Of a stretch of 64,000 nucleotides of DNA, positions 2,280-30,708 are shown one piece after another. Position numbers and translations under genes: made by a program. This DNA comes from Crambe crambe (taxonomy: Eukaryota > Porifera > Demospongiae > Poecilosclerida > Crambeidae). Position 1 is the first letter of the stretch, and each line of letters opens with the position of its first letter. Location: positions 1,488,001-1,552,000 of the forward strand of contig OZ004595.1 of assembly GCA_963924555.1 (NCBI GenBank). Reading direction: 5' to 3'. Under the pieces are notes generated by a model, which was not told the DNA's origin, did not search any database, and saw only the letters and a program-made list of their open reading frames with translations.

Positions 2280-2321
2280 AAAGTCCTTTGGCGGTGCGGC
2301 TAGGCTGTGACAGTGTGAATA

Positions 2322-3942: not shown

Positions 3943-3987
<45 letters not shown>

Positions 3988-5711
3988 CGTCGTCGTCATT
4001 GTTGTTGTTGTTGTTGCTGCTGCTGTTGTTATTGTTGTTGTTGTTGATCAAGGGTGACTGCGTAATAATCTCTTGCAGATATTGATGAGTGTGTCTCGGG
4101 TAATGGTGGCTGTACCCACACCTGTACAAATACACCAGGCAGCTTCAGGTGTTCATGCAGATCAGGATACGAGTTTGAACCAGGAAGTACCACTAGTCCA
4201 ACCAATGCTGGACGCAGTTGCACAGGTCAGAGTTCACTATTGACCCAAAAAACTGACCCAAGAATTAGCAATGGTTTTCATGCAGACATAAATGAGTGCT
4301 TGACAGCAAATGGAGACTGCGAGCAAGTGTGTACTAATTCTCCTCCTGGTTCGAGGACATGCAGTTGTAACAGCGGTTACAGACTAGAGAGTGACAATCA
4401 GGGTTGTGCAGGTGAATGAGACAATATCAGATTGCAAACCAAAATTACATGGCCTCCTTTCAAGTAGCCCAACTCCAAAGCCATTTGAAAGGAGGTATAT
4501 AACTTTTGGTTTTGCTGTTCTGGATTTCATGTTGCAAGATGCAGTAACTCTCTCTGATACATCTTATCCACAAGTTTATATGGCTACAAGAGATAGTCTA
4601 TTTTTAACCACTAGTTCTGATTGGTTGTGCAGATATCGATGAATGTGCTGGATCACTGCACAATTGTACTGGAAACGCTCAGTGTGTGAATGAAATAGGC
4701 TCCTTCCGATGCACCTGCCCCAGTGGCTATCTTCTATCCAATGAAGACTTTGCCAGCTGCAATGGTCAGTATTCCCTACACTGGTAGAATATGCTATGAC
4801 TTTGTAAATACAGCTTTTTTCACTGCTTCTTAACTATAGCCATAGAATTATATTATTGTTGTTATAGTTGCTATTCAAGTGAAGTATAATAATATTGACT
4901 ACATTATTACTGCAGATATTGATGAGTGTGCTCTGGGCCTCTCAGGATGCAATCAGATATGTAGCAACACGATCGGCAGCTTCCAGTGTTCTTGTAATGA
5001 AGGATACAAACTAAGCAGTGATAATTTGACATGTGTAGGTGAGGAATAGGCTGCATAAAGATTATGATAGCAGTAGAAATAGTAGTTGTTATCCCCATCC
5101 CCCCGTAATAAAAAGATGGAAGTTTTCTCAATTAACATCTGTATTATTACTGCACAGACATAGATGAGTGTGAACTGGAAATAGACAACTGCCACCATCA
5201 CTGCACCAACACTGTGGGAAGCTTCCAGTGCAGCTGTTCAAGAGGTTTCATTCTAACTACTGATCAAGCAAATTGTGTCCGTAAGTTCTAGCTATTCTTT
5301 GTGTTAGAGTGTTGAAGATATCATTTCACGTTGCGGCTGCAGGTCAACGGTGTCCCACTTTGATTCAGCCCCTGAATGGTCGATTTCTTGGTCCCTGCGA
5401 CAATAGGACAGGTGGTATATGTGGCTTTAGTTGCAATCGTGGCTACACCCTAAGAGGCAATAGCTTGCGAGTATGTACTCCATTCTTGACTTGGACTGGA
5501 ACTGATACAATCTGTGAGCCTCTTCTTTGCGTGCCTCTAGAAGCACCAGAAAATGGAGCCATCTTGCCACCATGTAATCAAGAGTTTATGTCATCTTGTT
5601 CGATTATTTGCACCATTGGGTACAAACGTCAGGGACCAGAGAAACAAACCTGTCAACTTAGTTCCGGAGGTGTTGAATGGAGTGAAGCACCAGTCTGCAT
5701 CGGTTAGTTCT

Positions 5712-5807
<96 letters not shown>

Positions 5808-11800: not shown

Positions 11801-12364
11801 TGTTATTCCTGCATGATCAAGATGATAGATGTCACTTATAGTGCATGCCATGCAGCCATTGTCCTTTGTAAGGAGGTTCTTTTCTCTTGGATCAGGTAAA
11901 AAGTGTACCAGTAACCATTGTATTTGGCTATAGTACACTAGCTATAAAAACAAATGTGTAAAAAAAAACAACAACAGCAATAACAACAACAGCAATAACA
12001 ACAACAACAACAACAACAGATAACCTAAAAATGAGTTGTTTTACACATTAGTTGTAAGTTATCAGCAGAGCTAGCTAAGTTACTAGACCACTTGTTTACA
12101 AAATTTAGTTACCATCAGATCAGTGTTGGGACTAATGCAGCAAGGAACAAAATAACAAACATGTTTACTTTTGTTGTGTGTGTAATAATGATATAGTTGA
12201 TCCTCTGCTGATCGAGTGCAGTACTGAAAGTGCTGGGAGCCAGGTTGAAATTGACTGCAAAACTAATAGGCCATCTATCTCCACCCTCTGCTCCTTTGAT
12301 GGAGGCTTGGAACACCAGTGTACGTCATCATCCTAATCAGCATGATGTATATATGTGTGACACT

Positions 12365-12396
<32 letters not shown>

Positions 12397-13731
12397 ATTT
12401 AGATACTGATTTAGCTAACATAACTTCCTTGTGGCAAAAGTAAATATCAATTGAACAGTGGATCCATGATACCACATGAAAATCTGTTGGCATGGATATA
12501 TCCACTCAAGTGAAAATTGTGGTTTGCTTAACATGCACCACAGGGTATGATTAGCAGTTGATGTATGGCTAGCCCACTTGTGACAATAGACAGCTAGCTG
12601 TGATAGATATCAAGAAAACTGTCTCACTTTATACTATGGTGGTTAACTAAAATAAATAGCTCTTCCTCAAATCAAACTGCAGGTGAATATCCAGTCGTGA
12701 TCAATGAAAGAAACGGCTTCTCCCCTGGGAATCATTCGCTGCTCTTCCACATTCGGGATAATTTGGGCTTCACAGCCAGGACCACTGTCAATTTTAAGCT
12801 CACAGATGAACAAACTATTACTAACAGTAAGAAAAATTAGCTGATAATAATTTTATGAGTGCTTACTTCACTCATGTCATTAGCATGTATTGTTACTGAA
12901 TGCTTGCTAATGGCCAGAATCCTTACAGCTAACCCACATGCAGCTTCATCTATGGTGCCTAAGCTTGGAGTACACTTTATCAACAGGAGTCCACGTGTAG
13001 GTTTGAATCGAGTGGAAGCTGACTTCATTCTGACCAGGCCAGCAGCTTCCATCACCTGTCAGTTGAAACCAGGAAGGAGAGCCAATACTGTGAAAGACTG
13101 TGAGTTTGATTATATTAGGATTCTAACAATCATGATGTGGTATTGCTGCTACTTTTTCTTCACAGGTTCGTCAGGCCATGTTTCGTACTCTGACCTTTAC
13201 CCCGGTAAGTACACCCTCCGTGTGACAGCCATCAACTATAAGAAAGAAGACAGGGTAATTATGAGAAGACGCTTTGAAGTTCCTCCTTCTTCCGATTTCT
13301 GCACCCTTCACTTGGTTGATAATGGGGTGGAGGTTGAAGCAATCACTGGAAATGTCACCATTGATTTTGATGGAGTGGGACCAGTGGAGGGGTTTCGATG
13401 TTCTCTGGACAAAGCACAATACTCACCATGTAAGAAAAAGTCAATATAGAGCATGATGCTCCAAGCTGTACTTTATGATGTGTGGGCTACTATGTATGTC
13501 CATGTATCAAATTACATCCACAAAACAAACAAACAAATAAAATGAAAAGAAAACAGCCAAACACCATTCTCTCGGCTAGAATTAATAATAATAGATATTC
13601 TCTATAATTATATAGGTATGCCACCAGTGGAATTCAGGGGTTTGATGGGAGGAGATCACACCCTGGTGATTGACCCCCAAGGTTGTCACAGAAATAGCCA
13701 AAGGAGGGCCCAAATCAAGTTCAAAGTGTGA
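2322..13731 (+). CDS. Large secreted EMI/EGF/sushi/Ig mosaic extracellular protein
   Basis: Twenty exons (2322-2380, 2492-2593, 2679-2782, 2909-3001, 3525-3647, 4079-4225, 4286-4411, 4633-4764, 4916-5038, 5158-5280, 5343-5702, 5903-7359, 7422-7539, 7641-11216, 11508-11711, 12197-12319, 12683-12826, 12929-13099, 13166-13429, 13616-13731) join in one frame to 2554 residues. Order: signal peptide (1-17), EMI-like domain (20-88), one EGF, six calcium-binding-type EGF each on its own phase-1 exon with D(I/K)xEC starts, two sushi domains, one EGF (about 498-545), an unrecognised region, coiled coil (about 1256-1339), a very Cys-rich block (about 1336-1476), two Ig domains (about 1873-2050), a GCC2/GCC3-type Cys repeat (exon 15) and an unrecognised tail. 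No transmembrane helix is seen at the C-terminus, so it is probably secreted and acts in matrix or adhesion. The function is not known. It is the downstream member of a tandem pair. Confidence 0.85.
2632..2675. repeat. (GTT)n microsatellite in intron 2
   Basis: Near-perfect GTT repeats run up to the acceptor of exon 3 (2679) and appear to serve as part of its pyrimidine-rich tract. Confidence 0.85.
3938..4046. repeat. (TTG)n microsatellite in intron 5
   Basis: About 100 bp of TTG repeats with a GTC patch in the middle, shortly before exon 6 of the mosaic gene. The reverse strand reads as poly-Asn, which is not a protein. Confidence 0.9.
5710..5804. repeat. (CT)n microsatellite before exon 12, with a duplicated acceptor
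   Basis: About 94 bp of CT repeat is followed by two copies of a 57-bp unit, each ending in CATAG followed by AGACAAACCCT. The acceptor AGs are at 5844-5845 and 5901-5902. Only the second continues in frame into the EGF; the first runs into TGA within a few codons. Confidence 0.9.
11281..11415. mobile_element. Short TA-flanked nested hairpin (Tc1/mariner-type MITE candidate)
   Basis: In intron 14 of the mosaic gene, 11281-11303 is a perfect 23-bp inverted match to 11393-11415. A second inverted pair lies inside (11338-11353 and 11355-11370, one mismatch). Trimming one base pair leaves TA on both sides, as expected for Tc1/mariner-derived miniature elements. The whole element would fold into one long hairpin. 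Confidence 0.6.
12365..12395. repeat. 31-bp poly-G run
   Basis: A homopolymer of G in intron 16 of the mosaic gene. Its true length may be misassembled. It could form a G-quadruplex. Confidence 0.9.
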
Positions 13732-13962: not shown

Positions 13963-16900
13963 ATGGCCAAGGCGGCACATAGAACTCTAATACAATGTGG
14001 ACCAAAGCTAACAAGTGAGATATCGACTATGGTACCAGCTATAGCCCGAGAGTTACTCGCCAGGAATCTCATCCCCCAGTCTGTGATGGGACAGATGAAT
14101 ACGGTAGGCATTGATGACAATACGAAGGCTTCCTGGCTAGTCGACGCAGTCACCAAGAAGATACAGAGTTTCCCAAATAAATTCGAAACGCTAATCGAAG
14201 CTTTAAAGACCAATGATTACTTGAGTGACATAGTGGAACTTCTTTTGGCCGAATATAAGGAAAGTAAGCTATAGACTATAGCTAGCTAGCTTACATGTGA
14301 ACTGTCTTGTCGATTCCTAGATGGTGGAACCATTACTGCTCCCAACCCATCTGCACAAGGTGAATATGCTAAATTCTAGCTAGTAATTAAGACATGATTA
14401 ATAGCTATTGACTCCACAAGGCTAGCAAGAGTGTAGCTTCACTTGTCAGCTACTAGCTAGATCTATTAGCTGCAGAAGAGCAATGCCTTGCTTGATTGTA
14501 TGGCCAGTAGGTGAATGATCTTACTTGATATAGTTAATGGCTTTAGTCCTGCAGGCTGGATATGAGCAATGGATCCTTTATACTAGCAGCCATTTTGTTA
14601 TTATGCTCTATGCAACAAAATGGCCACTAGCTATTGGTGTGGTAAAAATAGATGCATGCATGCTCTATAAACATCTGGCTTTTTTTTTTTTTTTTTTTTT
14701 TTTTTTTCTATCTTCAGCATGCTGGCCTTCTATAATACAGTAAATGACATTAAGTATACTATAAATGCTCAATCACATAGGTGCTTCGCCATCTGTCCAA
14801 CCCCCAGTAACACATAACCAACCTGGAGGTATGCAAATTTCATTATAGGGTAGTAATCTTTTGAGACACTAGCTATAGTGCACACACACACATTATGAGG
14901 TATGTTGCTAGCTTGTTTCCTAACCAAGTCCGATTATAGTTGTCTAAATATAATGGACTCAGTCCCCTCCTTCAAGGATTTCCCCAGTTGAGGGACGAGT
15001 CCCTTGATTGTTACCTAAATTTAGGGCTATATAGAACTGGAACTATTGAAGGACTGTCCCTTGTCATGGGAGTTTTCCTGGGTGAGGCCCCCTGGATCAT
15101 TCCTCATAATCATAAGAGCTAATAATTAGAGCTATATAACTATAGTATAAATAACCATGACAGCTATTCCAACCAACCATAACTTATTGAACCCATGCAC
15201 AGAATGAGTTTTTGTTGGTGTGTGCACAATCGTATATCTGTAGATTCCAAGCCCGAGCTTACCGACGTAGATCATCACACCGTACTCACCACTGACCTCC
15301 TGAAGGATCTCAATGCTCAGAATCTGAGGACCCTGGGTAGTGCTCTTGGTCTCTCTTATGCTCGTCAAAAGAGGTTGGCAGACCCCCTTGATGACATGGT
15401 CAGCGCATGGCTAACAGGACTAGACAATGTTGCAATTAACGGGAAAGATACTCGTAACTGGAATGACCTGATAAAAGCTCTGGAGCAGTGTCACATGGGA
15501 GGAACAGCCGCAAGAGTCAGAAGGGTAACCTAATAATTATTATTATAATGCAAAAACTAACTCATTGTCTTTACTGTTATAGCACGTTGCCAGTCTCAAG
15601 TAGAACCACAAAGACTGATGTTTACTTTTTCTTATATATTATGTTTATATTTTATGATGTTGGCATTGATTTTTCACCTTTGTATGCGTATGTGTAGGGA
15701 CTGGCACGTTATGCTTTTTTGCTTCCCTATTATTCTATTCTTTAATTCCAGCTGTATAAAGTCATTATTCTTTTTTTACTGACCATTCTTTAATTATGCC
15801 ATAGATATACTAGACTATAGTCTAGTATATCTATGATTATGCTCATAGCTGTATTGGAAAGACTACGTAAATAGCTATTTGCTATCTCAGACAAGTTTGG
15901 TCAAGTCTTAGATAATTAGACTACGTACACAGGATTGGAAACAATTATTCGCGCGCGGACCATGCGCGTTGCGCCAAATTATTGCAGCTGTTTACAGTGT
16001 GTGGTTTGTTTCTCTAAGTGTGTGGCTTGTTAGTGCTTGTATAGCTGGAGAAAACCTGATTTACAAGGTAAAATTGTGTTGTTATTGGCTAGCCAGTGCT
16101 AAGAGACCTAGCTATGATCTAGCTAGCTCTATCAGCTAGCTGGCTACTCCTAATTTACAGTGCTAGAGACCTAGCTAGCTAGCTATTAACTGAAGCTTAC
16201 ATGACCACTTCATTGAGCTTAATTGTTAGTGCTTGTATAGCTGGAGAAAACCTGATTTACAAGGTAAAATTGTGTTATTATTGGCTAGCCAGTGCTAAGA
16301 GACCTAGCTATGATCTAGCTAGCTCTATCAGCTAGCTGGCTACTGCTAATTTACAGTGCTAGAGACCTAGCTAGCTAGCTATTAACTGAAGCTTACATGA
16401 CCACTTCATTGAGCTTAATTGCTTTAACTATAGATCCTAGTGGAATTATTGTCCAAGTTTTGCAACAAATTGTGAAGACTAAGATGTTCTCTCATCCACA
16501 GAATTGTTCGAGAAATTGCTACTGCAGCTCTTGAGTGGTGCACAAATCCTTCAAGCTATGAAATGTTGAATTGCTTCTAATAAAATTACTTGACCCTCAT
16601 CCCTTAGAGAAAACACAACGAATTATGTGGGGGCAGTACCATAAAATTAGAACCACCACAGAGTTTCAGAAAATCTGAAAAGACTTTTTTTTGTCAAGCT
16701 GGTATAGCAATCACCCCTCCTGTACTAGAAAATTACAGATGTGTTAGCTATTTGAACAACAACTGCCCTATTTCAAGTGACCTCAGCTCCGCCTCCCAGC
16801 ATGATTATGACTTACGAAGAGAGTAATGCATTGCGGTATGCAGCAGGGTACATCCCAAGGGCTCTGCACAAGAGATTAAAAAGTTCCTCTCACCCTTGAA

Positions 16901-19900
16901 AGAAAATTTGATATGTTATATTGATGATTTGTTACTATGATGATGATGAAGAATCAGAGGATTGGATATAGACTTGGTCGATAGGAGATTACTCCACATT
17001 TCAAACTCCATGTATAGTTTCATGGTGGAGATGGAGAAAGAAGTTCAGAATCATTTGATAAAGCCCATTGATAACATTAAGAAAAGTATTAAAGAAGGAA
17101 TGTACAAAAATAGTCTGAAATTTCTGAGGATTGGGATGAAGAGGAGAGCAAGGTGATTGAAATGATAGTGGACCTTTGGATCACCACACGAGGCTTTGCT
17201 TTTGCTAGCTCAAAATGGCAAGTAGCTAAGAAATTGACCCAGAAAACCAAGGGCATAAGGAAGACTACTAAGACCCTCAATAGATTATCATAAAATTAAT
17301 TATTATGTAGGTATTATAATTTTATAATTATAAAGTTTCTACTGCTGATATACTAGCTTAATTTTGATGATATGGTAACACTAAAGAGTGAACAAACTGC
17401 TGTGGAATTTGGGCATTTTGAGAGTTTCACCAAAAGGTGAGGTTGGGCTCTTTCAATCTGACCCATTTAGATGGAAGTCTGTCCAGGTGATTGAAAGATC
17501 ACTGATACTAGAAGCAGGACTTGAAGATAATGGCACCTTGAGAATGTTCTTATTTCCATGTTTTTTGACACACAGTTTGCTTTTTTTCCTCCTTGGCATA
17601 GCTGTAACTAATAAATCAATGTGGATAAGTTAGCATGTACATTAGCTATAATTTTGGTCACTGCAGCTTATGGGATTGATGCTATTCCAAACTGCAGCAC
17701 TAACTTTATCAGTCAGCAAAATTTCATTGCTCATGCAACAGTGCCTTTTGTGTGAAAGAAAGCAAAAATATACACCTCCAAACACAGAAAAAGCCAGAAA
17801 GCATCAAAGATTCAGGACAAAAACATATATTATGCACACCATTCCGTATGGCAAGCATCACTCAATAACATAAACTTCATTAAAAGGACACAGGAATTAT
17901 GCCTTTGCAATGAAAGAAGAAAAAAACTTTATCCGTTGCTAGGGTGATAAAAATCTTCATGGAAAACTATTTTATGAGCAAACTAACTATACTTAAGAAA
18001 CACATTTCACATCCCTGGAACATACTCTGTAAAGTAGCCCTTTATTTGATGCTAAAACTCACCAGTTATTCTCCTTTCATGAAAAGTATACTCGAGAAAC
18101 AAGGAATAAATTTCCAATTTTCCTTCGCGCATAGCAACACGGATCGTCCGCGACGATTTGTATTAGCATAATGGGCGCACGTGAGCTGTTTCCAATCCTG
18201 TGTACGTAGTCTAATTATCTAAGGTCAAGTCATAGATATATCTATGGTCAAGTGTAGTCACGCACGCGCACACGAAATTAGCATGTAGGCACACATTTCA
18301 GGATCAACCTAGTCTGGCGTAGCCACACCCCCAAGCGCGAAGCGCGAGGTGGTCTGGAAACATTCAATACACCGAGTTGTCAGAAGTAGCAGAAAATCTG
18401 CTACTCATGAATATCATTACCTAACCACAGTGTGAACCACAGTGTACACCACAGGCATGCACAGCAGTAAGCCAACTAGACGGCTGCTAAGGAGAAACTA
18501 TCGAGTGCACTGCAGCAAATGAAGCTGCCCTGAAGTTGGGCTATCCATCACTAAGGCCTGAACAATTGGAAGTGGTGATCCAATTTTATCTGGCAGGGAT
18601 GTTTTTGCTGTGCTCCCAACTGGATTTGGGAAGAGCTTGTGTTTTGCCTTTAGCTTTAGATAAACTTACTTACTTCTTTTCTATATCTGAACCAACCGTA
18701 GGCTAGCAGATATACATCTTTACACTGCAGCTGCATATAACCACGTGTTGTTTTTATTACTTACCGCAATTACGCAGCATGACGACAAGCTGACCATAAT
18801 GGAAATTCCAATCTGACAACTCGTAGTATTGTATGTTACCAGACTCTCCCTTCGCGCTTCGCGCTCGGGGTGTGGCTGGCTACGCCAGACTAGGATCAAC
18901 CATCTTGAAGTTCACCTATTATGCCAGCATTATACTTCCTGCTTTGATAGACCTATTAGCTATTTCCAAAACTGCTGGCAGAATGTGCCAGTCCCTACGT
19001 ACGTGTGTAATTACGAGGGTGGGGCAACTATATGTTCGACTTGCCCTTCATAATTGTTCCGCCTTACCTTACTGTGGATAGCTTGAATCGACAAGTAAGA
19101 TGAGCGAGTATTTGATTGATGCTGCAGATGACAATTACAAGTAACCAGAAAGTTCCTCGAAAGCTAATCGAAGAAAATATTGCTTGAGAGTCCAAGCTTA
19201 ACAGCTGTAATAATGGAGTTGAATGCTGGTGGGTCTTTCTACATGACATGCTAGCCTCGTACCCAGGGCTTATTTCCAAAAGGAGAGGGGGAAAAATAAG
19301 GCCTGGTAGTAGTATACACTGCTTGTGCACATCCATCAGATTTTCGTGAAAATAGTAGCCATTTTGTGACACTATGCACGCACCCTTTTTCTTGTTATAG
19401 GTTCCGAGCCTGAACTTACTCAAAAACATCAAACCATACTCACCACTGAGCTCCTGAAGGATCTCAATGCTCAGAATCTGAGGTCCCTGGGTAGTGCTCT
19501 TGGTCTCTCATATGCTCATGTAAAGAGGTTGCCAAATCCCCTTGATGACATGGTTGAGGCATGGCTAAGTGGAGAAGACAATGTTGTGGACAAAGGGAAA
19601 GATACTCGCAGCTGGAATGGTCTGATAGGAGCTCTGGAGCAGTGTCACATGGGAGGAACGGCCAAGAGAGTCAGAAATGTATTGCTGGACTTAATATTGA
19701 GTTATGCAAACTCATTATTTTATCTTTACTGTTATAGCATGTTGCCAGTCTCAAGAAGGAACAGTGTCACATGGAAGGAACAACTGATGAAGTCAGAAAG
19801 GTACATACATATAGCTTAAAATAGCTACAAAATTAACTCATTGTCAGTACTGTTATTAGCGTGTTGCCAGTCTCAACAGAGGAGAGGAGCAGTGTCACCA

Positions 19901-21748
19901 CTCAGGGGGAAGAGCCGATAAAGTCAGAAGGGTAGCTTAATAACTATACAAAATTTAAAACTGACTCATTGTCTTTATAGAATATTGCCAGTTTTGAGAG
20001 TGAGAAACTGGAAAGGAAGCCTATTAGTAAGCCTAAGAGCTCACATGTAGAGAAGAAGGCTGGTGAGTCTTATGTTGACCAGCTGCATGCATATTGAAGA
20101 ACTCTTCATTATCTTTTTGTAGGGTGGGGGACTTGTGTAGGTCTGTGCATAGTAGTAGTTGTCGCTATTGCAATTGGTGGTGGATACATGTTCAAAGGTT
20201 AGTACCTATCAATCCACTTGAATCCACTCAAGTGCAGCCTTTATGGAGTTCACCAAAAGTGGTGAATACTTACTTAATACAGCTCCCTTATCATAAAATT
20301 AATGTGTGTGTTTTAGAGTATGTTAATAGACCTGCTCTTGGAAATCCAAGCAATGGTGTGCCTGGTCCTTCGGACTCTGTGAAGAAAGAAGCTTTGAAGA
20401 CTGAGAACCGAGCTTCAAAGGCAGGGGAAAGAACTGAGAGGGTGAAGGCTGTTATTACACCATTTGAAGGTTGGTGGGGAGAAAGAGTGAAAGCAGTTAG
20501 TACAGGTCGGTGAAATCTTCTCAATGATTTCAACCAAACCACTGTACTACCACCATTCATGAACCTGCATATAAAGCTTGTTCCTGGAAATGAGCTTCCA
20601 TATATAGAGGGTTTTTTTTTTTGTTTTTTTTTTTAAATTATTATTACATATTTAGTGAGTCTTATATGAAGTGTTTCACTCACTGATGAGTACACGATCA
20701 TTAGACACTATCTCTTTACATACAGGAAGTAAACTTGATGGGGGTGATAACTTTTGATAGTGTATAGTTTTAAGAGTGTCCATTACTATTCTTGTTATAT
20801 TAATAGATAGGAAGCCTGATTTGAGTTCATTGGAGCATCTAAAGGGTCCTCACAGTGATGTCCGCATTATCCGTGACAGTGGCGAGTATAGAAAACTAGG
20901 AATCTGTTTGCTTAAATTACCAAATGCAGCAGAACTAAATGACATGGAAAGAGACTGCTTAGGCAAAACTTACTGTATAAAATCATCCATTTTTGACAAG
21001 TGGTTACACGGCCAAGGAGAGAAGCCTGTGACGTGGAAAACACTGATTTATGTACTTGAAGAATGCATGCAACTGGTAGAATTGGCCAAGGATGTAAAAC
21101 TCATCATAGCATCAATACAGCAGAAAACTCCTGATGATAGATCAGCTGATGAGACACTTGCACGTGAGTATAGTATCAGGAACAGACCATTTTTTCATGC
21201 ATGCTTAGGGTCATTACTGTGATTGAATTTGGTTAGTGGAGTTATTCTTATTATTGCAGGGGCTTCCTCAACTGCTACTCCTACCTCCACTCACTCTGAA
21301 CCAACTTCAGGACAATCTGGTGGTAAACCTAGGCTCTCCTTAACTCAGCATTTTCCAATTCCATATTATTATAGCAAACGTTTTTATTGTGTAGATACTC
21401 CACAGCTTACCAGTAAGGACCATTCCACTATCTCTCACCTCCTGAATGATTTAAATCTCGATAAATTGAGATGCCTGGGTGGAGCTCTGGGATTACTGGA
21501 CAGCAATCTACAGAAGATGAGGGACCTCCTTCCGGACATGGTGTCTGCATGGCTCATTGGAGAAGACAATGTAACGAATATGGATGGAGTTGGAGATACT
21601 CGTAGTCGGGAGGGTCTAATACAGGGCCTATTGAAGTGTAACATGAAAGGAACAGCCGACAAAGTCAGGAAGGTAAGAATCTTGCACACTTCCTAGCTTC
21701 TCTAAGATTTTTATTTTTTATTTTTCTATTGTATAGAGTCTCGAGTAA
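13963..21748 (+). CDS. Gene B: CARD-like / death domain / transmembrane / death domain protein
   Basis: Exons 13963-14263, 14321-14359, 14781-14828, 19401-19678, 19738-19800, 19860-19931, 19981-20062, 20123-20197, 20317-20505, 20807-21163, 21260-21322, 21395-21672 and 21737-21748 join in frame to 618 residues. Exon 1 is a CARD-like helical domain (about 1-100) closely related to that of gene D. Exon 4 is a death domain with the usual buried Trp and a W..L..AL..C ending. The next two exons are small repeats of the end of exon 4. Exon 8 (75 nt) encodes one hydrophobic helix (about residues 295-318). A charged linker, a second death-like domain (20807-21163) and a third death domain follow. There is no signal peptide. 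An alternative exon 4 lies at 15244. The family suggests an innate immune or cell-death adaptor; that is inference. Confidence 0.75.
14680..14707. repeat. Poly-T run in intron 2 of gene B
   Basis: A homopolymer of about 27 T inserted in the segment otherwise similar to 541-690. It accounts for part of the length difference between the two copies. Confidence 0.85.
15244..15603 (+). other. Alternative death-domain exon pair of gene B (exons 4a and 5a)
   Basis: 15244-15524 is a near copy of exon 4 (19401-19678): it starts in phase 1 and ends in phase 0 like it. It is followed at 15583-15603 by a copy of exon 5 that reads HVASLK and then TAG. Because each exon 4 copy needs phase 1 and leaves phase 0, they cannot be used in series. 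Using 4a with 5a would give a short soluble CARD plus death-domain protein of about 229 residues. Skipping it gives the membrane form. 4a could also splice in frame to exon 5 at 19738. Confidence 0.6.
15800..15835. repeat. Perfect 36-bp palindrome
   Basis: The two 18-bp halves of catagatatactagacta are perfect inverted copies with no spacer. It lies in the long gene B intron, about 70 bp before the transposon terminal repeat at 15907. Confidence 0.85.
16031..16421. repeat. 196-bp tandem duplication inside the transposon
   Basis: tagtgcttgtatagctggag starts at 16031 and again at 16227, and the two units are almost identical to their ends near 16226 and 16421. High identity suggests a recent duplication. 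Confidence 0.85.
16805..17290 (+). pseudogene. Decayed transposon-encoded protein
   Basis: Plus-strand pieces in several frames read ALRYAAGYIPRALHKRLKSS, then LVDRRLLHISNSMYSFMVEM, then LWITTRGFAFASSKWQVAKK. From memory, RYAAGY.....L, (L/V)(V/I)(D/N)RGGL and RGFxxA are conserved blocks of a transposon-associated protein multiplied in sponge and cnidarian genomes. Frame breaks separate the blocks, so it is not functional. The family name is not known to me. Confidence 0.45.
18310..18892. mobile_element. 583-bp TIR element with 9-bp target duplication carrying a RecQ-like helicase relic
   Basis: Terminal inverted repeats of about 50 bp (tagtctggcgtagccacacc and following bases, including a GC-rich agcgcgaagcgcga core) flank the element. 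ggatcaacc is repeated at 18301-18309 and 18893-18901 as a 9-bp target-site duplication. Inside, 18520-18660 encodes, across one frameshift, LKLGYPSLRPEQLEVVIQF and SGRDVFAVLPTGFGKSLCFA, the start of a RecQ-type helicase domain with the Walker A motif PTGFGKS. It looks like a deletion derivative of a larger element. Confidence 0.65.
19252..19306. mobile_element. Degenerate copy of the short foldback element at 31790
   Basis: The left end tagcctcgtacccagg matches the element at 31790-31856. The right arm (ggcctggta) is diverged. It lies just upstream of gene B exon 4. Confidence 0.45.
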
Positions 21749-21946
21749 CTATAACAACTGATAACTTAATACCTTTTTGATATTAGCTATTGCACATCCA
21801 ATGCAAGCCTCTGTGATGGGTATATGCACACAAATCATGATGTATGTTATACAGGTGTAGAGGCATCTAGGAGAAGTATTTATTTTTGTAAACTGTAATA
21901 CTACCCAGGTTAAGTACCAAATAATGTAATGAAATTCATATTAATT

Positions 21947-23847
21947 TTAACTTAATCGACTCAATCTGAAAGGCGAAAGGTTGTAAGACGGAGGTTGGTC
22001 CAGAGCAAGTTCGCTTAAAATCTTGCCAATCACAGGACTCAGCTTGAACCCATGACCTATGCAGAAGTATGATTATCATCGTCATGGACCCTGTGATAAT
22101 CCCTCATGATCTTGCTCACATGAAAGATTTACGTAGCTAGCACATTTAATATAAAAAAGCTGTTTCAATCATACCTGAAAAACCTGTTCCAATAATGATA
22201 TTTGAGTGTTCAGTGTGTCTGTCCAATACTGGGTTCTCATCAGGACTCTCCTAAAAATTAGCAGAATAACCATCAAGCCCAAAATTTAAGGAGTGGTTGA
22301 GTCTTGTGAAAGTTGAGTTCAATTATTCAGCTAACGCTACAAATCTCTCTGCTGCTAGTAGAGAGAGAGAGCTCACCGTGTACATGCAAGGCTCCACTAT
22401 GCTAGGAGTAGAAGCCACTCCCTTGAAGATTCTCTTCACAAAGCCAGCAGCCACACTGATAATGGAGCTGGATGATTGGTTAGCATCACGATCATCAGGC
22501 TCTATTTCATATTCCGGACTAGGTTGAGAATGATAGAAAATCTGTGTAGCAATATCTTAAATTGATTCACACAGAATAAATCTACATTTACCATAATAAC
22601 TACTATAACTATAATAGACTATTATATTCTGCAACATTGTGGTTAGCTATAACTTATACAAGTAGAACTCTATACAGAAGGGTACACTCAATACTAACCT
22701 TGACTAGCCCAGGATATTCATGTATTGGCAAGCCATAGAATAAATATAGACGTCCTTCCTCTGTATATCGAGCCATTAATACAGGGAAATTCTTCGGAGA
22801 GTAGTCCTCAGGTGAATCAACTTTCCAGTACAAAACTTCAGCTCTCAAAATCTGCAAGTTCCGGAACATTCACGGTGAATACTATGGACTAATAACAGCC
22901 AGACACAATTCGTTTTGGCTTTGCTTCAGGCTAGTGGACCAGTGTACTACAATATAAGCAATAATTATGACTATCATCTGGTACTACGCATGTCCTTGAT
23001 AATAAATGTTACTTTAAGGACTGCCCACCTTCATAGGTATCTCTATACCAAGTGTTTTCAAGATGGTAGGTGTCCAAGCTCCAGCTGTTATCACTAGCTT
23101 TTTTGTCTTGAAATCTCCTTTGGTTGTCTTGATGGTGATCACATCACCAGGGACAATCTCGGTCACTGGATGTTCATCTCGCAGTTCTCCTCCAGCTGAC
23201 ACAAACAGTTTCTGTAAATTGTAAGTGGAATCCTTATCAAAGCTAGCTGCACTAAAGGAGAAAAGAGCTTTGGAAATCGCCATAGCACACAGCTTCAAAG
23301 TCCATGCACAATCACAACCACCTAAAGGGCTCCTTGCAGTTCAGCACCCTGAAAACCTATTTAGTAGTTTAGTTTTGTTCTTGTCTTTGTTGTTAGTCTT
23401 GTGTCTCTTGTTTTGTTTTGTTCTTTTTTTCTCTCTCTCTCTTTTTCCTTTTGTCCTTCTTGTCTCTCTTCTTACCTCTATACTCCTCTATACTCTCATT
23501 CCTACACCTATTCCCTTCTCATTGCTTGCAATGAAATTTATTAGAGAAAAAAAAAAGTACCACACCTGATAGGCAGCCAGTGCTTCTGAGGCTTGTAGAA
23601 TTCCTCCATCTTCTTCAAATACACATGTAAAATCTGACGGTACGGATATCTGGTTAGAGTACCTTTCATTGGCCTGCAGAGTGAAGTCAAGAATGTTATA
23701 CTGACTGTGAATTCCTTCACATCACCAGCACAAGTCAACTTACTTCACTAGCAGAGAAAGTTTCATGTGAAATTCCATTGCTTTCCAGACTGTCAGTTAC
23801 ACTAGTCATGACATCCTCTGAACCAAATGCCAAAATACCTGTCTGAC

Positions 23848-23911
<64 letters not shown>

Positions 23912-24269
23912 GTTATTGTATGTAGCAGCTTGTGAACCAGCTTACATGTAAAGTTGAGTATTACTAAGCTCCTCCAGTTCACTCCACATCTTAAATGCTT
24001 CATTCATCATTTTTACATAGTACTTGTGGTGATAGGCACGGCGTGTGATACGAGACCGTCCATGAGAGCTGCCACGACTGTGAAGAGCAGTAAACTACAG
24101 CAAAAAGATTTACTTCTAGTCAAATATGATCCAGCCCTTCACGCCATCATGCATTTCTCACCTGTTCCAGCAGAAGCACCTTCTTCAGTCCTGCTTTCCG
24201 GACAAGGTAGCATGCAGTGGAACTCCCCTGTATGCCAGCTCCCAACACCACAACATCGTAACAGGCCAT
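21947..24269 (-). CDS. PIPOX: Peroxisomal sarcosine oxidase / L-pipecolate oxidase, copy 1
   Basis: Nine exons (24162-24269, 23946-24094, 23744-23846, 23566-23673, 23029-23211, 22699-22851, 22377-22541, 22175-22250, 21947-22056) give 384 residues, against about 390 in human PIPOX. The N-terminus has the FAD-binding GAGIQG motif (residues 10-15), then the HSRGSSHG segment. The covalent-FAD cysteine is kept in EPCMYT (about residue 320), and [14 protein letters not shown] lies near the end. The family oxidises sarcosine, pipecolate or related N-methyl or cyclic amino acids with release of hydrogen peroxide. The C-terminus reads LSRLS, which is not a canonical PTS1. It is tandem with copy 2 and convergent with gene B (198 bp between stop codons). 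Confidence 0.9.
23849..23906. repeat. (GA)n microsatellite at the exon 3 acceptor of PIPOX copy 1
   Basis: About 58 bp, reading as (CT)n on the coding strand and ending at the acceptor AG of exon 3. The repeat itself forms the polypyrimidine tract. Confidence 0.9.
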
Positions 24270-24615
24270 GGCCTTTAATCTGGACCAACTAAGTTTTAAA
24301 CTTTAACTAACTAGTGATTGGGCATCAAAGCTATGATTTAGCTAACTATTAAATTCTGCATGCTAGCTACTCAGTCTGACTCTCTCTGTACTGTAGTGAA
24401 TCTTTACATAGTCTCGCGCGCCCAGCCAAAGGTTCTGGCCACGCGAGACAATTCAAAGTCTACTGTGGAGTCTGACCTGTGATTGTTGTAAGCATCATAT
24501 TCAGTGTGATCTTCTATTGTTTGCTGAGTCATCACAACGATGAGTGACTCATACACGTGATATCTGCGCGCGCAGCATGCAGCTCAATGGCGGGAATTTC
24601 AAATACTAATTATTA
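24270..24615. other. Spacer between the PIPOX genes: promoter of copy 1, small GC-rich foldback
   Basis: No gene. 24409-24449 holds a short imperfect inverted repeat (gtctcgcgcgcccagcc and ggccacgcgagac). 24521-24555 contains tgctgagtcat and gagtgactcat, both with a TGA(G/C)TCA AP-1/Maf-type core, near a cacgtg E-box. They lie about 250 bp upstream of the copy 1 ATG and could be enhancer sites. That role is inferred from motif only. Confidence 0.4.
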
Positions 24616-24886
24616 CTAACTTTTAAATCGACTCAGTTTGAAAGGTGACAGATTATAGGACAGAGGTTTATCCAGAGCAAGTTCACTTAAAATTTTTCCA
24701 ATCACAGGACTCAACTTGAACCCATGACCTATGCAGAAATAGGCAACTAAAGGAGAATTACACAGAGGGCATAGCATACTTTACCTGAAAACCCTGCTCC
24801 AATAATGATATTTGAGTGCTCCGGATGTCTGTCTAACACTGGATCCTCATCAGGAGTCATCTAAAAAGGTATAATATGTGAAAGTC

Positions 24887-24958
<72 letters not shown>

Positions 24959-25544
24959 CTTCAACAGTTATGCAGGCAGTGTTAGCTGCCATTTTATTAA
25001 TGGTCCATGATTTTGAGAGAATGCAGTATAGTGAAATCTATGCATTGGGATTGGTCATTGTAACTTCTCTTAGGAGGTAGCTGTATTACTGCTGGTGCAT
25101 TGAAATGTGATCATTCTTTCCTGTTAGAGGTGATTGCATGTACTTTAAAAACTCACCGTGTACATGCAAGGCTCCACTACACTAGGAGCAGAAGCCACTC
25201 CCTTGAAGGCTTCCTTCACGAAGCTTGAAGTTATACTTGCAGAGCTAGTTGGAAGGTTGGCATCACGATCATCTGGTTCAACTTGTGGACCAGAGTGATA
25301 GCAAATCTGGGAAAATCAGACTAGTAATTAGCCCCTACATATCACAGATAGGGCCGGACAACTGACCTTGACGAGCCCAGGGTATTCATGTATTGGTAAC
25401 CCGTAGAATGAAAATAGACTCCCCCCAGATGTACTTTTGCCAATAAATGCAGGAAATTTACTTGGAGAGTAATCTTCTGGTGAATCAACTTTCCAATACA
25501 AAACTTCAGTTCGTAAAATCTAAAGAGATAATTCCACACAATAA

Positions 25545-25598
<54 letters not shown>

Positions 25599-26833
25599 TG
25601 GGGGGGGGGGGCAAAAGGGGAAAAATTGCTGCTTCAGGGAAAAAAAGTAAATCTTCGTATGGGCAACAGGTTAATAATACTACACCATGCATGGCCACAT
25701 AGTAACAGTACTCCAGATCTTTAATAAAAGTTCAGTGTGCCCACCTTCACAGGTAGATCTATGCCCAGTTTCTTGAGGACAGAAGGCGCCCAAGCTCCAG
25801 CTGTTATCACTAGCTTTTTTGTCCTGAAATCTCCTTTGGTTGTCTTGATGGTGATCACATCACCAGGGACAATCTCGGTCACTGGATGTTCATCTCGCAG
25901 TTCTCCTCCAGCTGACACAAACAGTTTCTGTATGAAGAAGTGAGAGATTTTTATAAGCACAATTGCATTGGTTGTTTCAAGCATGATTCTATACTGGGAG
26001 AGTCCACAAGCCATGTTGCCATAGATATTAAACACACCTGATAGGCAGCCAGTGCTTTTGAAGCTTGTAGAATCCCTCCATCCTCTTCAAACACGCATGT
26101 GAAATTTGATGGTAGAGACAGCTGATTAGAATATCTTGCATTTGCCTGCACAAAGTACATTAGCTACTTCATATGTTACATTAGCCAGAAGCACTTACTT
26201 CAGCTGCAGGAAAAGTTTCATGTGAAACTCCATTGGCTTCCAGACTCTTGGTTACATTAGTCATGATGTCATCTGAACCAAATACTAGAATACCTGTGCG
26301 ACTAGAGATAGAGAGAGAGTGCATGTCTGTGGTAACTTGAGAGTGTAAAACCATTCATATGCAGATTTAGATACAAGGTTATCCATGGTCCTAAGGGAAC
26401 AATAAGATAGTTTGGGTGGAACAATAAGAGAGTTTGGGTGCAACTAGCAAGGGTGCATGCTCAGAAAAAAAATCAATCTCCATCACTATTAGGAGTGGTT
26501 TAATTCTTACATGTAGAGTTGAATGTTACTAAGCTCTTCCAGTTCACTCCACATTTTAAATGCCTCTTCCATCATTTTAACATAGTAGGCATAATTATAG
26601 GCACGGCGTGTGATACGAGAGCTTCCATGAGAGCTGCCACGACTGTGAAGAGCAGTAAACTAGCAGGAAGTGTGATGATTAATTTGGTCCAGGTCATCTC
26701 TGTTAGTTCATGCACCTCTCACCTGTTCCAGCAGAAGCACCTTCTTTAGTCCTGCTTTCTGGGTGAGGTAGTAAGCAGTGGAACTCCCCTGTATACCAGC
26801 TCCTAACACCACAACATCATAACAACAAGCCAT
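24616..26833 (-). CDS. PIPOX: Peroxisomal sarcosine oxidase / L-pipecolate oxidase, copy 2
   Basis: Nine exons at the same positions as copy 1 (26723-26833, 26511-26659, 26199-26301, 26038-26145, 25745-25927, 25367-25519, 25157-25306, 24785-24860, 24616-24728) give 381 residues. The GAGIQG FAD motif, HSRGSSHG and the CMYT cysteine are all present. Exon 5 is almost identical between the copies while other exons differ more, which fits gene conversion or strong constraint. Exon 7 is 15 nt shorter than in copy 1. The C-terminus is LSRFKS, again without a canonical PTS1. It is divergent from gene C, with 145 bp between start codons, so the two may share a promoter. Confidence 0.9.
24887..24957. 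repeat. (AAT)n microsatellite
   Basis: About 70 bp of trinucleotide repeat in intron 7 of PIPOX copy 2. Confidence 0.9.
25545..25610. repeat. (TTA)n microsatellite followed by poly-G
   Basis: About 54 bp of TTA repeat then a run of about 11 G, in intron 5 of PIPOX copy 2. Confidence 0.9.
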
Positions 26834-26978
26834 TTTACACAGATGTACACACCCACCACATGTTAAGTCACATGCAATTTGCATGCTCTAATTAAAAGAA
26901 AGGCATGTTAATTTTCCAGCTACGTTCAATCAATCAAAGAACTAGAAACAAACAGAGTAGCTATATATATATACCGCC

Positions 26979-29002
26979 ATGGATCCAGAGAGCAGAGCTA
27001 TGACTAAGTCCATTACCGTGATGTGCGACTTTATGCGCGATGCTGCAACTGAAGTGGCTAATGCATTTTTAGAAGAGGGTTTTATTCCAAAAGACCAGCA
27101 CAGAAAAGTGCTGAAAGACAGTGGAGAAGTGACATCCTTATGGACATCATGTTTGACTGCCAGAGCGAAGAAGAAGCCAGAGGTATTGAAGAAAATCATG
27201 GAGATTTTTCTTACAAGGATGCCAAGCTCAGAGTATGCAGTAGAAGAATTGAATCAAAACTATGGTAAAGTATAATACTGCTAGTTAGGTTAGCTGCTAC
27301 AAACTTAACAAAGCTGTGAATCTTACTCATTTTTCTTGTGCAGTTGATCTTGGTGGAGATGATCTGCTTGCAGAAATACAGGCACAGCTACAGAAAAGTA
27401 CGAAAAAGAGTAGGAGACTTGCATCGTCTAGCCAAAACCAGAGTCGTCCAGAGAAAAAGGGTAGGAATCCACTTGTCTACCTACTAGTTATAAGAGCTTC
27501 ACAGAAGCATAGCTTGATGGCTAGCAGCTATGCTCTAAAGATGAAAAAAAGGTCATAACTCATCTATGAAAATAAATCTAACCAGGCAAGCCTACATGCT
27601 CTTTTATCAGCCACACCAACTCTGTTATCTCATAGCTAGAATTATCTGCTTCTTATGAATAATTATCTTCAGGAATAACTAGCCGACCTCCAACAGCCAA
27701 CAGTGTCATTCGCTTTTTAACAGAAGAAAGTTTCCCTGCTGGAAGAGCCAGGCAGCTGGGTGCATTTTTGGATGTACCACAAGGACAGCTTGACACATTT
27801 GCAGCAAACCATCCTAATAATGCTGTTGGGGTGTTAATGGATGTCATCACTTATTGGATAGATAATGATAAACCTTCATGGGAAACTCTTGCTACTGCTT
27901 TGAAGGCATGTGGCCACAAAACGATGGCAAAGAAGATTAGAAGTAAGTAAGAAACAGTGAGGTCTGTCTGTAATGACTGGTTCACTAATTCCTCTTATCA
28001 TAGCGAATCCAGATGATAGTGATGAAGAACCTATTCAAGACTGGAATCAAGGATCAATACAGCATGTGGAAAAATCTTCAGAGAAGATGCATCACAGAAA
28101 GACTTGTAAGGATAGATATTTTTAATGATCAATAGTGACATCTTATAAAATCCTGCAGCTATAGAGAAGAACAAAGGGCCTGGGCGTGCATGTGGTAAGA
28201 GGAAAGTGTGAAATAGCCTATATTTCTTCCTCCAACATAATTATTATAGCTAAATTCTGATATTTTTTTTTCTGCAGGGAGGTGGTGCACTTTCATGACC
28301 ATATGCTTCGGGGTGGCTATAGCTTTAGGCTGTAGATATGTTATGTATCAAGGTTAGTTCTTGGCTTCAAGCAATTTATAGCTTGTTCTTCCCAAATTGT
28401 TGTTTGTTTGTATCATATTTGAATTATTAGTTAATTCATATCCGGAGTGGGACAGGGACGTCCCCATGGCCCCATACAAGCCCCCAGTCAAGAAGTCTGT
28501 GCCTCCCAATGAGAAACCCAGCACTCACCCTGGGCACACTTCAGGGTCCAGCATAAATGTGCCTAGTCCTCCACCCAATGAGAAGCCCAACATTCCCCTC
28601 CCTGATAAAGATAAGCACACCAATTCTGGTATGATATAATCTCTAGTATAAACTGTGATTACTTTTTGTTGTTGTTATTTGTTTGTTTGTTTGTGTATAG
28701 AGTGTAATGAGATAAAGGAAGAAGGTCCAGGAGTATCACTTGAAGAAACTATAAGTAAAATTGATGACAAGAGAGAAAAAATATGTAGATATCTCAATAT
28801 ATCTACTGATACATGCAACAATTTGAAGCATGGTAGCGATGGTCTCACGCCCTTCAACCTTGCAGAGTCATACATGCAACAGAACCCTATCGCCTGCTGG
28901 GAAAAGATAGTGACAATGTTGTGCAGCAAATTCAAAGATAAGAGGCTAGCTAAAACAACAGCTGATGCACATGGTGTGAATTATAACAGACATTGTCCAT
29001 AA
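26979..29002 (+). CDS. Gene C: CARD-like / death domain / transmembrane / death domain protein
   Basis: Eight exons (26979-27264, 27344-27460, 27673-27942, 28004-28105, 28159-28194, 28278-28352, 28431-28628, 28701-29002), all joined in phase 1, give 461 residues. The ATG sits in a strong context (accgccATGG). Order: CARD-like helical domain (about 1-95), basic linker, death domain (about 137-225, ending W..L..AL), acidic linker, one membrane helix on a 75-nt exon (about 271-295, same exon length as in gene B), a Pro-rich linker with two near repeats of PPNEKP, and a Cys-containing C-terminal death domain (about 365-461) ending HCP. There is no signal peptide, so the CARD is probably cytosolic. 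The stop is only 46 bp from the gene D start. Partner and pathway are not known. Confidence 0.8.
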
Positions 29003-29048
29003 AATAATTTTAGCGATTTTAATTTTTGTCAAGAAAAAAATTCGCTTC

Positions 29049-30708
29049 ATGATTCAAGTGATGGCAGCGGAATATCAGACGCTGCTAAAGTGCGGTCCAA
29101 AGCTGGTAGAAGCGATAGCTCCTTCAGTGTTGACGATAGCAGAGGATCTAGCTGCCACCAATGTCGTTCCCTCGAGCGTGATAGCAGAGATAAAGCTCCC
29201 AGCCCTAGCTGATGAGAGCAAGGCTTCTAAATTGATAGACGTTGTCAAAATGAAGGTACAAAGTCATCCTAAGCTATTCAAGGACTTCATAAAATGTCTG
29301 GAAAAACACCTCAGATTGTCTGATCTGATGAATAAAGTATGGACAACTTATGAGAAAAGTGAGACTGCATAGCATCAAGAATGACTTAATTGAGTTTTTG
29401 ATACATTTTCAGATGGTGGAGTGAGAGTGCATAAGACTGGAGACAGCTCTGGAGGTGAGGGAAAGAAAACAGGCACCGTGTTTATGGTTGAGTGGGCATT
29501 AATTAAAATAAACTCCTTTTTCTCTTCCCTGATATGCTGTTTATGATACTTTATCATAATGTGTAGCTACAGATGATGCAATCAAAGAGGCAGGACGTAG
29601 AATAGCCAGAGGTAAGTGCCTGTCTTGCACAGCCAGGATACCTTGATAGCTACTAGGTATTTTGGGTAGTTCATAATGGCAAGAATAGTTTAGGAGCCTC
29701 ATTTCTGGCATACATCAGTATAATGATAGACATGGCCCTTGTCCCTTCCTTGCAGGAGCTGTGAGTAATGCTGTCCAAAGAAGAAAGAAAGATCAGAGTG
29801 AGTGTATGCTGAACCCTTTATTCCGAAACATTGATTGTAGCTACCCTGATTGAAGTAGTAGCCATATTATGAGTAGGAGTTTGTGTACACTTAAACTTAA
29901 TCAGTCATTCATGAAGCATTTGTGACTCTCTGATTAACCGAAATATCCTTTTACCCACTGTCTTTTGATACACCAGTACAATAATAGTTATTGATTTGTG
30001 TCTCATCTATTTACAGAGAAGGAAAGTTCATTCTTACAGACACTTGCCGTGATAGCAATCTTTATTGCTGTGTTTGGGGGTCTTTTTAGTGGCTGGACCT
30101 GGGGCAAACACAATGGTGAGTGGAGTGTGTTACGGGGACATCACTTTTATAACTATTATTGATTCATTGTACCTATAGAAATGAAGGACACAGTGAAAGG
30201 TACGCTTCTCTACTGTCTATATAATATCTGATAGTATAATTAGCTGAAGTCACTTTAGGTCAGCATTGTAAAAGTTTATTGACCAATACTGTCCAAAGTA
30301 TGTAACAATTATTCACTTTGGTAAGCATTGTAGTTAGATAGAAGTCAACTTGATCCTTATGGTCACTGACACGTACTACAGACTACAGAACCATTATATT
30401 GATCACTAATAGGTTGCACAGAAATAAAAGGGAGTCGAGATGTGGGGAGGATATTGGAGAAAGTTGGTCTATCGTACGAAAAGACGTGCAGCGATATGGG
30501 CATGAGCGATAACACTTGCAGCAAGTTATTTGGTGGAGACAGAAAAGGCTTGGAATACAACACAATTGCAGTCGAGTACCTGGAACAAAACCCAAAGGCA
30601 TGCTGGGAGGACATCATCCAAATCCTCTGTCAGAATTTCAAACATATGAGGCTTGCAAGACAAGCAGCAACAAAATTCAATGTACGTAATTACGAACAAT
30701 ACTGTTAG
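29049..30708 (+). CDS. Gene D: CARD-like / transmembrane / death domain protein
   Basis: Seven exons (29049-29358, 29413-29454, 29567-29611, 29756-29797, 30017-30115, 30179-30199, 30413-30708), all in phase 1, give 284 residues. A second ATG at 29061 is also possible. The CARD-like exon matches gene B exon 1 clearly (shared CGPKL, then DESKASKLIDVVK and SHPKLF in D against the equivalent positions in B). Exon 2 starts like gene B exon 2 (NGG). Then come short charged linkers, a membrane helix (about 152-172), and a death domain (about 190-284) with cysteines at the same places as gene C (TC, CW, LC, YC at the end). It lacks the middle death domain of B and C. It looks like the minimal form of the family. 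Confidence 0.8.

Follow-up and report, generated by a model that had tools for sequence, protein, structure and literature searches.

Three Crambe crambe genes with a CARD-like domain, one putative membrane helix and death-type domains, two of them with a six-cysteine domain behind the helix

The known role of death-fold domains is that of signalling adaptors in the cytosol and, to our knowledge, death-type domains are not normally found outside the cell. The TNF-receptor family, p75NTR, NRADD and UNC5 are single-pass proteins whose death domain signals by clustering. They are of type I, their death domain is cytosolic only, they have no CARD and their outer part is built from other folds. In MAVS, an N-terminal CARD is tethered to the membrane by a tail anchor at the extreme C-terminus. 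Three genes of the sponge Crambe crambe, named B, C and D here, differ from both arrangements. Each combines a CARD-like domain with a death-type domain situated behind a single putative membrane helix, and 114 to 304 residues follow this helix. The three genes are readable on the + strand and together span positions 13963-30708 of a stretch of 64 000 nucleotides of contig OZ004595.1 (assembly GCA_963924555.1; C18:1488001-1552000), hereafter called the window. Their modules are known in sponge immunity; the arrangement is new to us. No description of a death-superfamily domain on the outer side of a membrane was found in the open-licence literature, which does not imply its absence from print.

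One report describes sponge NLRs of the CARD-NACHT-LRR and Death-NACHT-LRR types, with CARD or Death at the N-terminus (PMC12909245). A member of the N-terminal family shared by B and D is also located about 4.5 kb upstream of a NACHT exon (NACHT E = 1e-23), on the same strand, at locus L061. What sets B, C and D apart from the sponge NLRs is the putative membrane helix, with another death-type domain after it. No Pfam match to NACHT or LRR was obtained in C, D or the scanned B domains, which leaves them outside the NLRs. In Amphimedon, 357 NCOA6-clade TRADD-N proteins were described, most types having 1-3 N-terminal death-like domains followed by TRADD-N and a variable C-terminus; among them, the available part of that report mentions no protein in which a membrane helix is combined with an outer death domain (PMC8195603). 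Unlike this expansion, the scanned pieces of B, C and D gave no Pfam match to TRADD-N. The same source presents DED-TRADD-N receptors of Crassostrea virginica, with a Cys-rich extracellular domain, one helix and an intracellular death-superfamily module (DED), and in its available part the outer domain is not described as a death fold (PMC8195603). The N-terminus of these receptors is outside, i.e. their orientation is opposite to that proposed below for C and D. Finally, the Dysidea avara gene TR154561_c0_g1 encodes Ig domains and a CARD and, in the available part of its report, is listed among the genes whose expression changes upon exposure to microbial patterns (PMC6208332). It likewise joins a CARD to receptor-type domains, with Ig in place of the outer death-type domain.

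Gene models were drawn from open reading frames (ORFs) and splice sites for B (13963 to about 21696), C (26979-29002) and D (29061-30708), all on the + strand. The models used have 10, 8 and 7 exons and predict proteins of 577, 461 and 280 residues, respectively. All 22 introns are GT-AG. An earlier note on this DNA had described the exons as nearly all of phase 1, and this was borne out by 21 of the 22 introns (7/7 in C, 6/6 in D and 8/9 in B). The sole other intron, of phase 0, joins the B death-domain exon dd2 to the next exon; the donor of dd2 scores 1.5 and the remaining 21 donors 6.3-11.4, on a matrix built from these same genes. Introns are 53-219 nt long in C and D and reach 4572 nt in B. 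A home-made exon scorer with chaining recovered most C and D exons (the C death-domain exon was trimmed and one exon was added to D) and strung doubtful exons together in B and in two other loci (L054 and L055). Because of these doubtful chains, and since the scorer was trained on B, C and D, it was excluded from the evidence.

In C, a diverged CARD-like exon (26979-27264) is followed by a linker (27344-27460), a death domain (27673-27942), a second linker (28004-28105), a basic linker (28159-28194), the helix exon (28278-28352), a proline-rich stalk exon (28431-28628) and the exon of a C-terminal six-cysteine, death-like domain (28701-29002, stop at 29000). D starts at ATG 29061 with a CARD-like exon (29061-29358) and continues with two linkers (29413-29454 and 29567-29611), a basic linker (29756-29797), the helix exon (30017-30115), a short linker (30179-30199) and its own C-terminal six-cysteine, death-like domain, open to the stop (30413-30708). 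The linker and stalk exons of both genes are bounded by GT-AG introns in phase 1. The order given in the earlier note, namely an N-terminal CARD-like exon, one hydrophobic helix and a death-type domain after it, was recovered in B, C and D, with the death fold of the last domain of C and D supported and not proven. The death domain placed by that note before the helix in B and C is probable, with Pfam Death scores that stay below the cut-off of 22.6 bits (20.6 bits in C, E = 4.9e-4; 14.6 bits in B dd1, E = 0.036).

D follows C head to tail, its ATG only 58 nt (29003-29060) after the C stop, and the transcript is possibly polycistronic or read-through.

Topology was estimated from 19-residue Kyte-Doolittle windows and from charge counts over 15 residues on each side of the helix, which is not a trained predictor. 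One dominant hydrophobic window was found per protein (mean 2.43 in B, 1.67 in C and 2.36 in D). The N-terminal maxima were 0.83, 0.64 and 1.26, respectively; with no comparable hydrophobic window at any N-terminus, the lack of a signal peptide claimed earlier holds by hydropathy. Charges were +4/-1 before and +1/-3 after the helix in C, +6/-2 and +2/-2 in D, and +3/-1 and +2/-1 in B, which favours an N-terminus inside, clearly in C and D and weakly in B. Accordingly graded, the sequence features of a type II protein (internal helix, no signal peptide, positive charge on the N-terminal side) are clear in C and D and weak in B. The helix exon is 99 nt long in D and 75 nt long in both B (20123-20197) and C, the latter length having been correctly reported before. 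All three are multiples of 3 in phase 1-1, so that skipping them keeps the frame. The helix exons of B and C, and that of the C copy on contig C6, look related by eye, with a core VAIAIG or VAIALG; their donor contexts are TTCAAAG/GTTAGT in B and C6 and TATCAAG/GTTAGT in C.

At 39% identity, the final exons of C and D have six cysteines in common. The genome (143 Mb, 119 contigs) was searched with both domains, and the family was found at five places: C, D, C6:5128130, C21:3304993 and C21:2486313. All six cysteines are kept in four of these five copies, and a hydrophobic helix and a linker precede the domain in each of the four (C, D, C6 and C21). At the C6 locus (L049), the helix exon (6071-6139), the linker (8511-8561) and the domain (8629-8930) repeat the order and phase of C and are open to the stop. 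The C and C6 domains are 69% identical, and EWDRDVPM in the stalk of C reads EWERNVPM in the C6 copy. Over 99 codons, the two six-cysteine exons differ by pS 0.173 and pN 0.142 (dN/dS about 0.80), with no stop and the six cysteines kept; this ratio points to purifying selection that is weak or to constraint combined with change, and it neither proves nor excludes function. Between C and D, silent sites are saturated, and the frame and cysteines are intact. The cysteines kept behind a signal-anchor-like helix suggest an outer, disulfide-braced domain with a predicted pairing. The helix, linker and six-cysteine exons would form a shuffled cassette joined to differing inner modules, because no relative of the C death domain was found near the C6 copy (none among the 150 of 277 candidates scored) and because the exons upstream differ at the C21 locus. 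Among what the latter encode are a death domain, an Ig domain and a piece similar to the NOD2 winged helix; these exons possibly belong to a single gene.

At L050, on the minus strand at about 3790-2220, an Ig domain (Pfam Ig_2 E = 4.1e-7) lies between a death domain and helix/six-cysteine exons. A NOD2_WH-like fragment was seen in the same stretch at E = 0.0058, which is below the cut-off; the sequence ahead of this fragment contains a stop. GDVETNPGP motifs, which we take to be 2A-like ribosome-skipping motifs, were noticed on the minus strand of L050 (4660-4683) and of L056 (2203-2226). One such motif is in an exon about 0.2 kb before a death-domain exon of the C21 locus ending in the six-cysteine domain.

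The six-cysteine domain of C and D is probably a death fold. The best genome match to the C domain outside the family was a death-domain exon at C5:5850936 (E = 0.0185), with a twin at C5:6161423; this exon matches Pfam Death at 5.2e-4. A profile of the family was run against 1367 ORFs of at least 60 residues from the window and 64 loci. Above the inclusion threshold and outside the family, it reached death-domain exons only, of three distinct types: the C5 pair, L057:5966-6487, and L052:2932-3225 with its twin in L053. As the loci had been fetched by CARD, death or six-cysteine queries, this set is rich in death domains, and among the matched exons only L057 was fetched independently of the six-cysteine search. 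With hhalign, the family aligned to death domains with a probability of 76.7% and to the CARD family with one of 0.4%. In the alignment, the conserved CWE motif of the family coincides with the W in the (S/T)W motif of death domains. When the C5 domain was left out of the death-domain profile, this profile matched the D exon at E = 0.049 and the C exon at E = 0.69. An AlphaFold2 model made from the two six-cysteine sequences of the window was all-helical, with six helices of at least 4 residues (13-31, 35-39, 50-60, 62-76, 80-90 and 94-97).

The local death-domain profile was built from eight hand-picked domains, including that of C and B dd2. Against PDB it matched THOC1, FADD (E = 2.3e-9), CRADD, p75NTR and others. 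Designed repeat proteins topped this search; no stretch of them passed alone and they were taken as artefacts.

The reading that we favour, at a little less than an even chance, is that C and D are type II single-pass receptors with the CARD (and, in C, the death domain) in the cytosol and a divergent, disulfide-braced death domain outside. The earlier note had placed death folds on both faces of one helix in all three genes. As an architecture this is supported for C and D, by charge, by the six cysteines and by the repeat at C6, all of them additions to that note, and it is weaker for B. The reading builds on open exons with splice sites, CARD and death similarity, the helix, the charge bias, the cysteines and the helix-domain order in four copies; it presupposes splicing into one mRNA, membrane insertion, disulfides, a ligand and signalling. 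C and D would be inserted as signal-anchor proteins of type II, with the N-terminus inside and the C-terminus outside. The outer domain, braced by up to three disulfides, would face the cell exterior or an organelle. There, on its proline-rich stalk in C, it could bind a ligand or its own kind and so bring the receptors into clusters. By analogy to other CARD receptors, the clustered cytosolic CARDs might then seed a CARD-type assembly and recruit downstream CARD proteins. That C and D work in this manner as two-face death-fold receptors, the outer domain binding ligand or self-assembling and the inner CARD relaying the clustering, is a possibility that we hold somewhat more tentatively than the favoured reading. 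The job of such receptors would likely be innate immune or self/non-self recognition. The same process of shuffling would have made B a related mosaic, in which the death domains that follow the helix are ordinary ones. If this is true, the death fold can serve as an ectodomain, a death-superfamily domain having been adapted to extracellular life. One fold family would then both sense and signal, with a simple passage of clustering through the membrane, and early-branching animals would have one more receptor class for immunity or self-recognition.

Several results weigh against this reading. The copy at C21:2486313 keeps three of the six cysteines and its helix is not established. The other C21 copy has a helix split over two exons, with an ambiguous flanking charge (+3/-1 and +2/0). 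The charge difference across the B helix is small, and the dN/dS of the C/C6 pair points to weak purifying selection on it. Other results concern the fold itself and speak for an alternative that we regard as unlikely, in which C and D are type II receptors and the six-cysteine domain is another disulfide-braced helical ectodomain merely resembling a death domain. It would bind a ligand as other small Cys-rich ectodomains do; the receptor would stay and the outside death fold would fall. At E<=1, no Pfam Death match was obtained for the last domains of C and D, nor for their three genomic relatives, and a PDB profile search with the six-cysteine family reached no death domain up to E = 10. The 76.7% alignment includes the C5 death domain, itself picked by the six-cysteine search. 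Against seven death domains without it (the eight hand-picked ones minus the C5 domain and B dd2, plus one from L006), hhalign gave a probability of 8.5%, and the reversed profile scored 19.1 against 20.3 for the true one (best of 200 shuffles, 15.2). Because of this near-equal control, the 76.7% was not relied on alone. Confidence in the AlphaFold2 model is low (mean pLDDT 61.6, pTM 0.45), with residues 2-21 and 42-57 below pLDDT 50 and good values only from residue 61. A helical ectodomain of another kind is, however, at odds with the reach of the six-cysteine profile, confined outside the family to death-domain exons (in a set rich in them), with the best non-family match genome-wide being a death domain, and with the alignment of CWE to (S/T)W.

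Two further explanations dispense with an outer domain or with the whole protein. In one, which we consider improbable, the helix exon is optional or not inserted into the membrane, which leaves every death fold in the cytosol and makes the proteins multi-domain adaptors or scaffolds of the CARD/death kind; B dd1 with its early stop would then give a soluble CARD-death isoform. The helix exons can indeed be skipped in frame in all three genes, and in B the post-helix domains are ordinary death domains and a stop follows dd1. Sponge proteins with 1-3 N-terminal death-like domains are numerous, and in the available part of the report their C-termini are read as intracellular types (PMC8195603). 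Such a cytosolic role accounts poorly for the apparent kinship of the helix exon in B, C and C6, for a charge bias that fits a signal-anchor in C and D, and for a six-cysteine pattern kept behind the helix. The last explanation, to which we give the smallest chance, is that the models are composite: the CARD/death exons and the helix with the six-cysteine exons would be separate or decayed units of a fast-shuffling region, with no full two-sided protein. It draws on the copying of single exons across the genome (dd3 and dd4 are found at different places), on the relatives of the C death domain, none of them listed near the C6 copy, on the dN/dS of C vs C6 and on the short C-D gap. In B, the stop after dd1, the weak dd2 donor and the repeated DNA in the 4572-nt stretch before dd2 go the same way. 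Decayed or separate units are nevertheless hard to reconcile with the short introns of C and D, all GT-AG, with the lack of stops in their exons, and with the recurrence of the helix-linker-six-cysteine order in frame at C6 and of helix, linker and dd4 for B.

The N-terminal domain assigned to the cytosol in the proposed type II receptors C and D was compared across the genome. Exon 1 of B and exon 1 of D are 37-38% identical, and their family was found at 114 genome places at E<=10; with the limit at E<=0.001, 24 places remain, one of which is D. Pfam CARD matched D exon 1 at E = 0.026 (15.0 bits against a cut-off of 23.9, hence below it); at E<=1, it matched neither the full D, nor the full C, nor B exon 1. 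For the family alignment, 19 of 30 fetched loci were chosen by hand. L026, L027, L030, L033, L034, L037, L038, L040, L041, L043 and L045 were left out (near-duplicates, one with a stop, others for brevity). Three of the 19 aligned members, the D exon among them, matched Pfam CARD at E<=1. Of the 42 genomic Pfam CARD places, three coincide in position and strand with weak B/D family members (C15:1102371, E = 0.05; C15:1144877, E = 0.03; C1:1679672, E = 0.33 in the family search), and C1:1679672 exceeds the Pfam CARD cut-off together with its neighbours. Because of this overlap we conclude, on sequence grounds, that the N-terminal domain of B and D is a diverged CARD. Exon 1 of C is far diverged: it has no Pfam CARD match, it matches the B/D family profile at 95.6% with hhalign, and no other genome match below E = 0.35 was found for it. 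In a PDB profile search with the CARD family, RAIDD came only at E = 1.3; a PAH-type protein ahead of it (E = 1.6e-4) was taken as chance or a shared helix pattern.

The closest relatives of the B/D N-terminus are at L054 and L055. On one strand of L055 (1198-6905), the exon related to the B/D CARD precedes an exon for a death domain (profile E = 5.2e-13), behind which come exons of Ig type and a helix. This arrangement, possibly that of a single gene, recalls the Dysidea gene; the Ig-type exons could not be tied to the CARD gene. At L054, the same was true of a hydrophobic exon 3.7 kb beyond the CARD-death exons.

The death domain before the helix of C has at least 27 relatives in the genome at 62-73% identity (among the 150 of 277 candidates scored). 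On the minus strand, C18:2195845-2390300 holds a dense cluster with 16 of these 27 exons, which is a recent expansion of the C death-domain exon.

B was judged apart from C and D, because its exons move independently and its charge evidence is poor. A single family of B, C and D was rejected, B being devoid of a six-cysteine domain. B starts at ATG 13963 with a CARD-like exon (13963-14263, donor GTAAGC) followed by two linkers (14321-14359 and 14781-14828, GT-AG, phase 1). Its death domain before the helix exists in two versions, dd1 (15244-15524) and dd2 (19401-19678), which are 76% identical (dN/dS 0.75); no Pfam Death match was obtained for dd2 at E<=1. Both are phase 1 in and 0 out and are therefore mutually exclusive in one message. 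A short repeat exon-like piece after dd1 (15583-15603), behind an AG, reads HVASLK and then a stop, so dd1 may give a short soluble form. This stop suggests that a shortened CARD-death isoform is made or that the first duplicate is decaying. After dd2 come two optional short repeat exons open in phase 0 (19738-19800, which resembles the ends of dd4 and dd2, and 19860-19931), a basic linker (19981-20062, GT-AG, phase 0 in and 1 out) and the helix exon. Behind the helix are a linker (20317-20505, alternative donor 20469), the death domain dd3 (20807-21163), a further linker (21260-21322, GT-AG, phase 1) and the death domain dd4 (21395-21696), which is 52% identical to dd2 and was read through to the stop at 21694, the putative gene end.

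Neither dd3 nor dd4 gave a Pfam match at E<=1. The local death-domain profile, which contains B dd2, matched them at E = 9.6e-4 and E = 5.8e-6, respectively, and neither has the six-cysteine pattern. Copies of dd3, 88-90% identical, were found at four places (C12:5829535 and three on C18), and a copy of dd4, 88% identical, at C18:734588. The stretch C18:733184-734995 contains, in order, a 54-nt hydrophobic exon, small exon-like pieces, a 78% copy of the post-helix linker (C18:733566-733760, with the 20469-type donor kept) and the dd4 copy (94% at the DNA level), with no dd3 copy. The post-helix domains of B thus appear to be ordinary, recently copied death-domain exons, and a two-sided use of death domains is less certain in B.

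The 3.9 kb between dd1 and dd2 (15530-19400) contain repeated DNA, with a 25-nt word found at both 16044 and 16240 and flanks similar by eye, and near 18491-18706 what is presumably a helicase-like fragment. This intervening stretch looks like a transposon insertion.

Two similar gene copies were seen by eye, from their ORFs, on the minus strand between B and C (22300-26840); we take them to encode a sarcosine-oxidase-like FAD enzyme. B, C and D are therefore not strictly contiguous. Directly upstream of B, at 2300-13730 on the + strand, is a large gene; by eye, it has exons resembling EGF, sushi and Ig domains and seems to encode a signal peptide.

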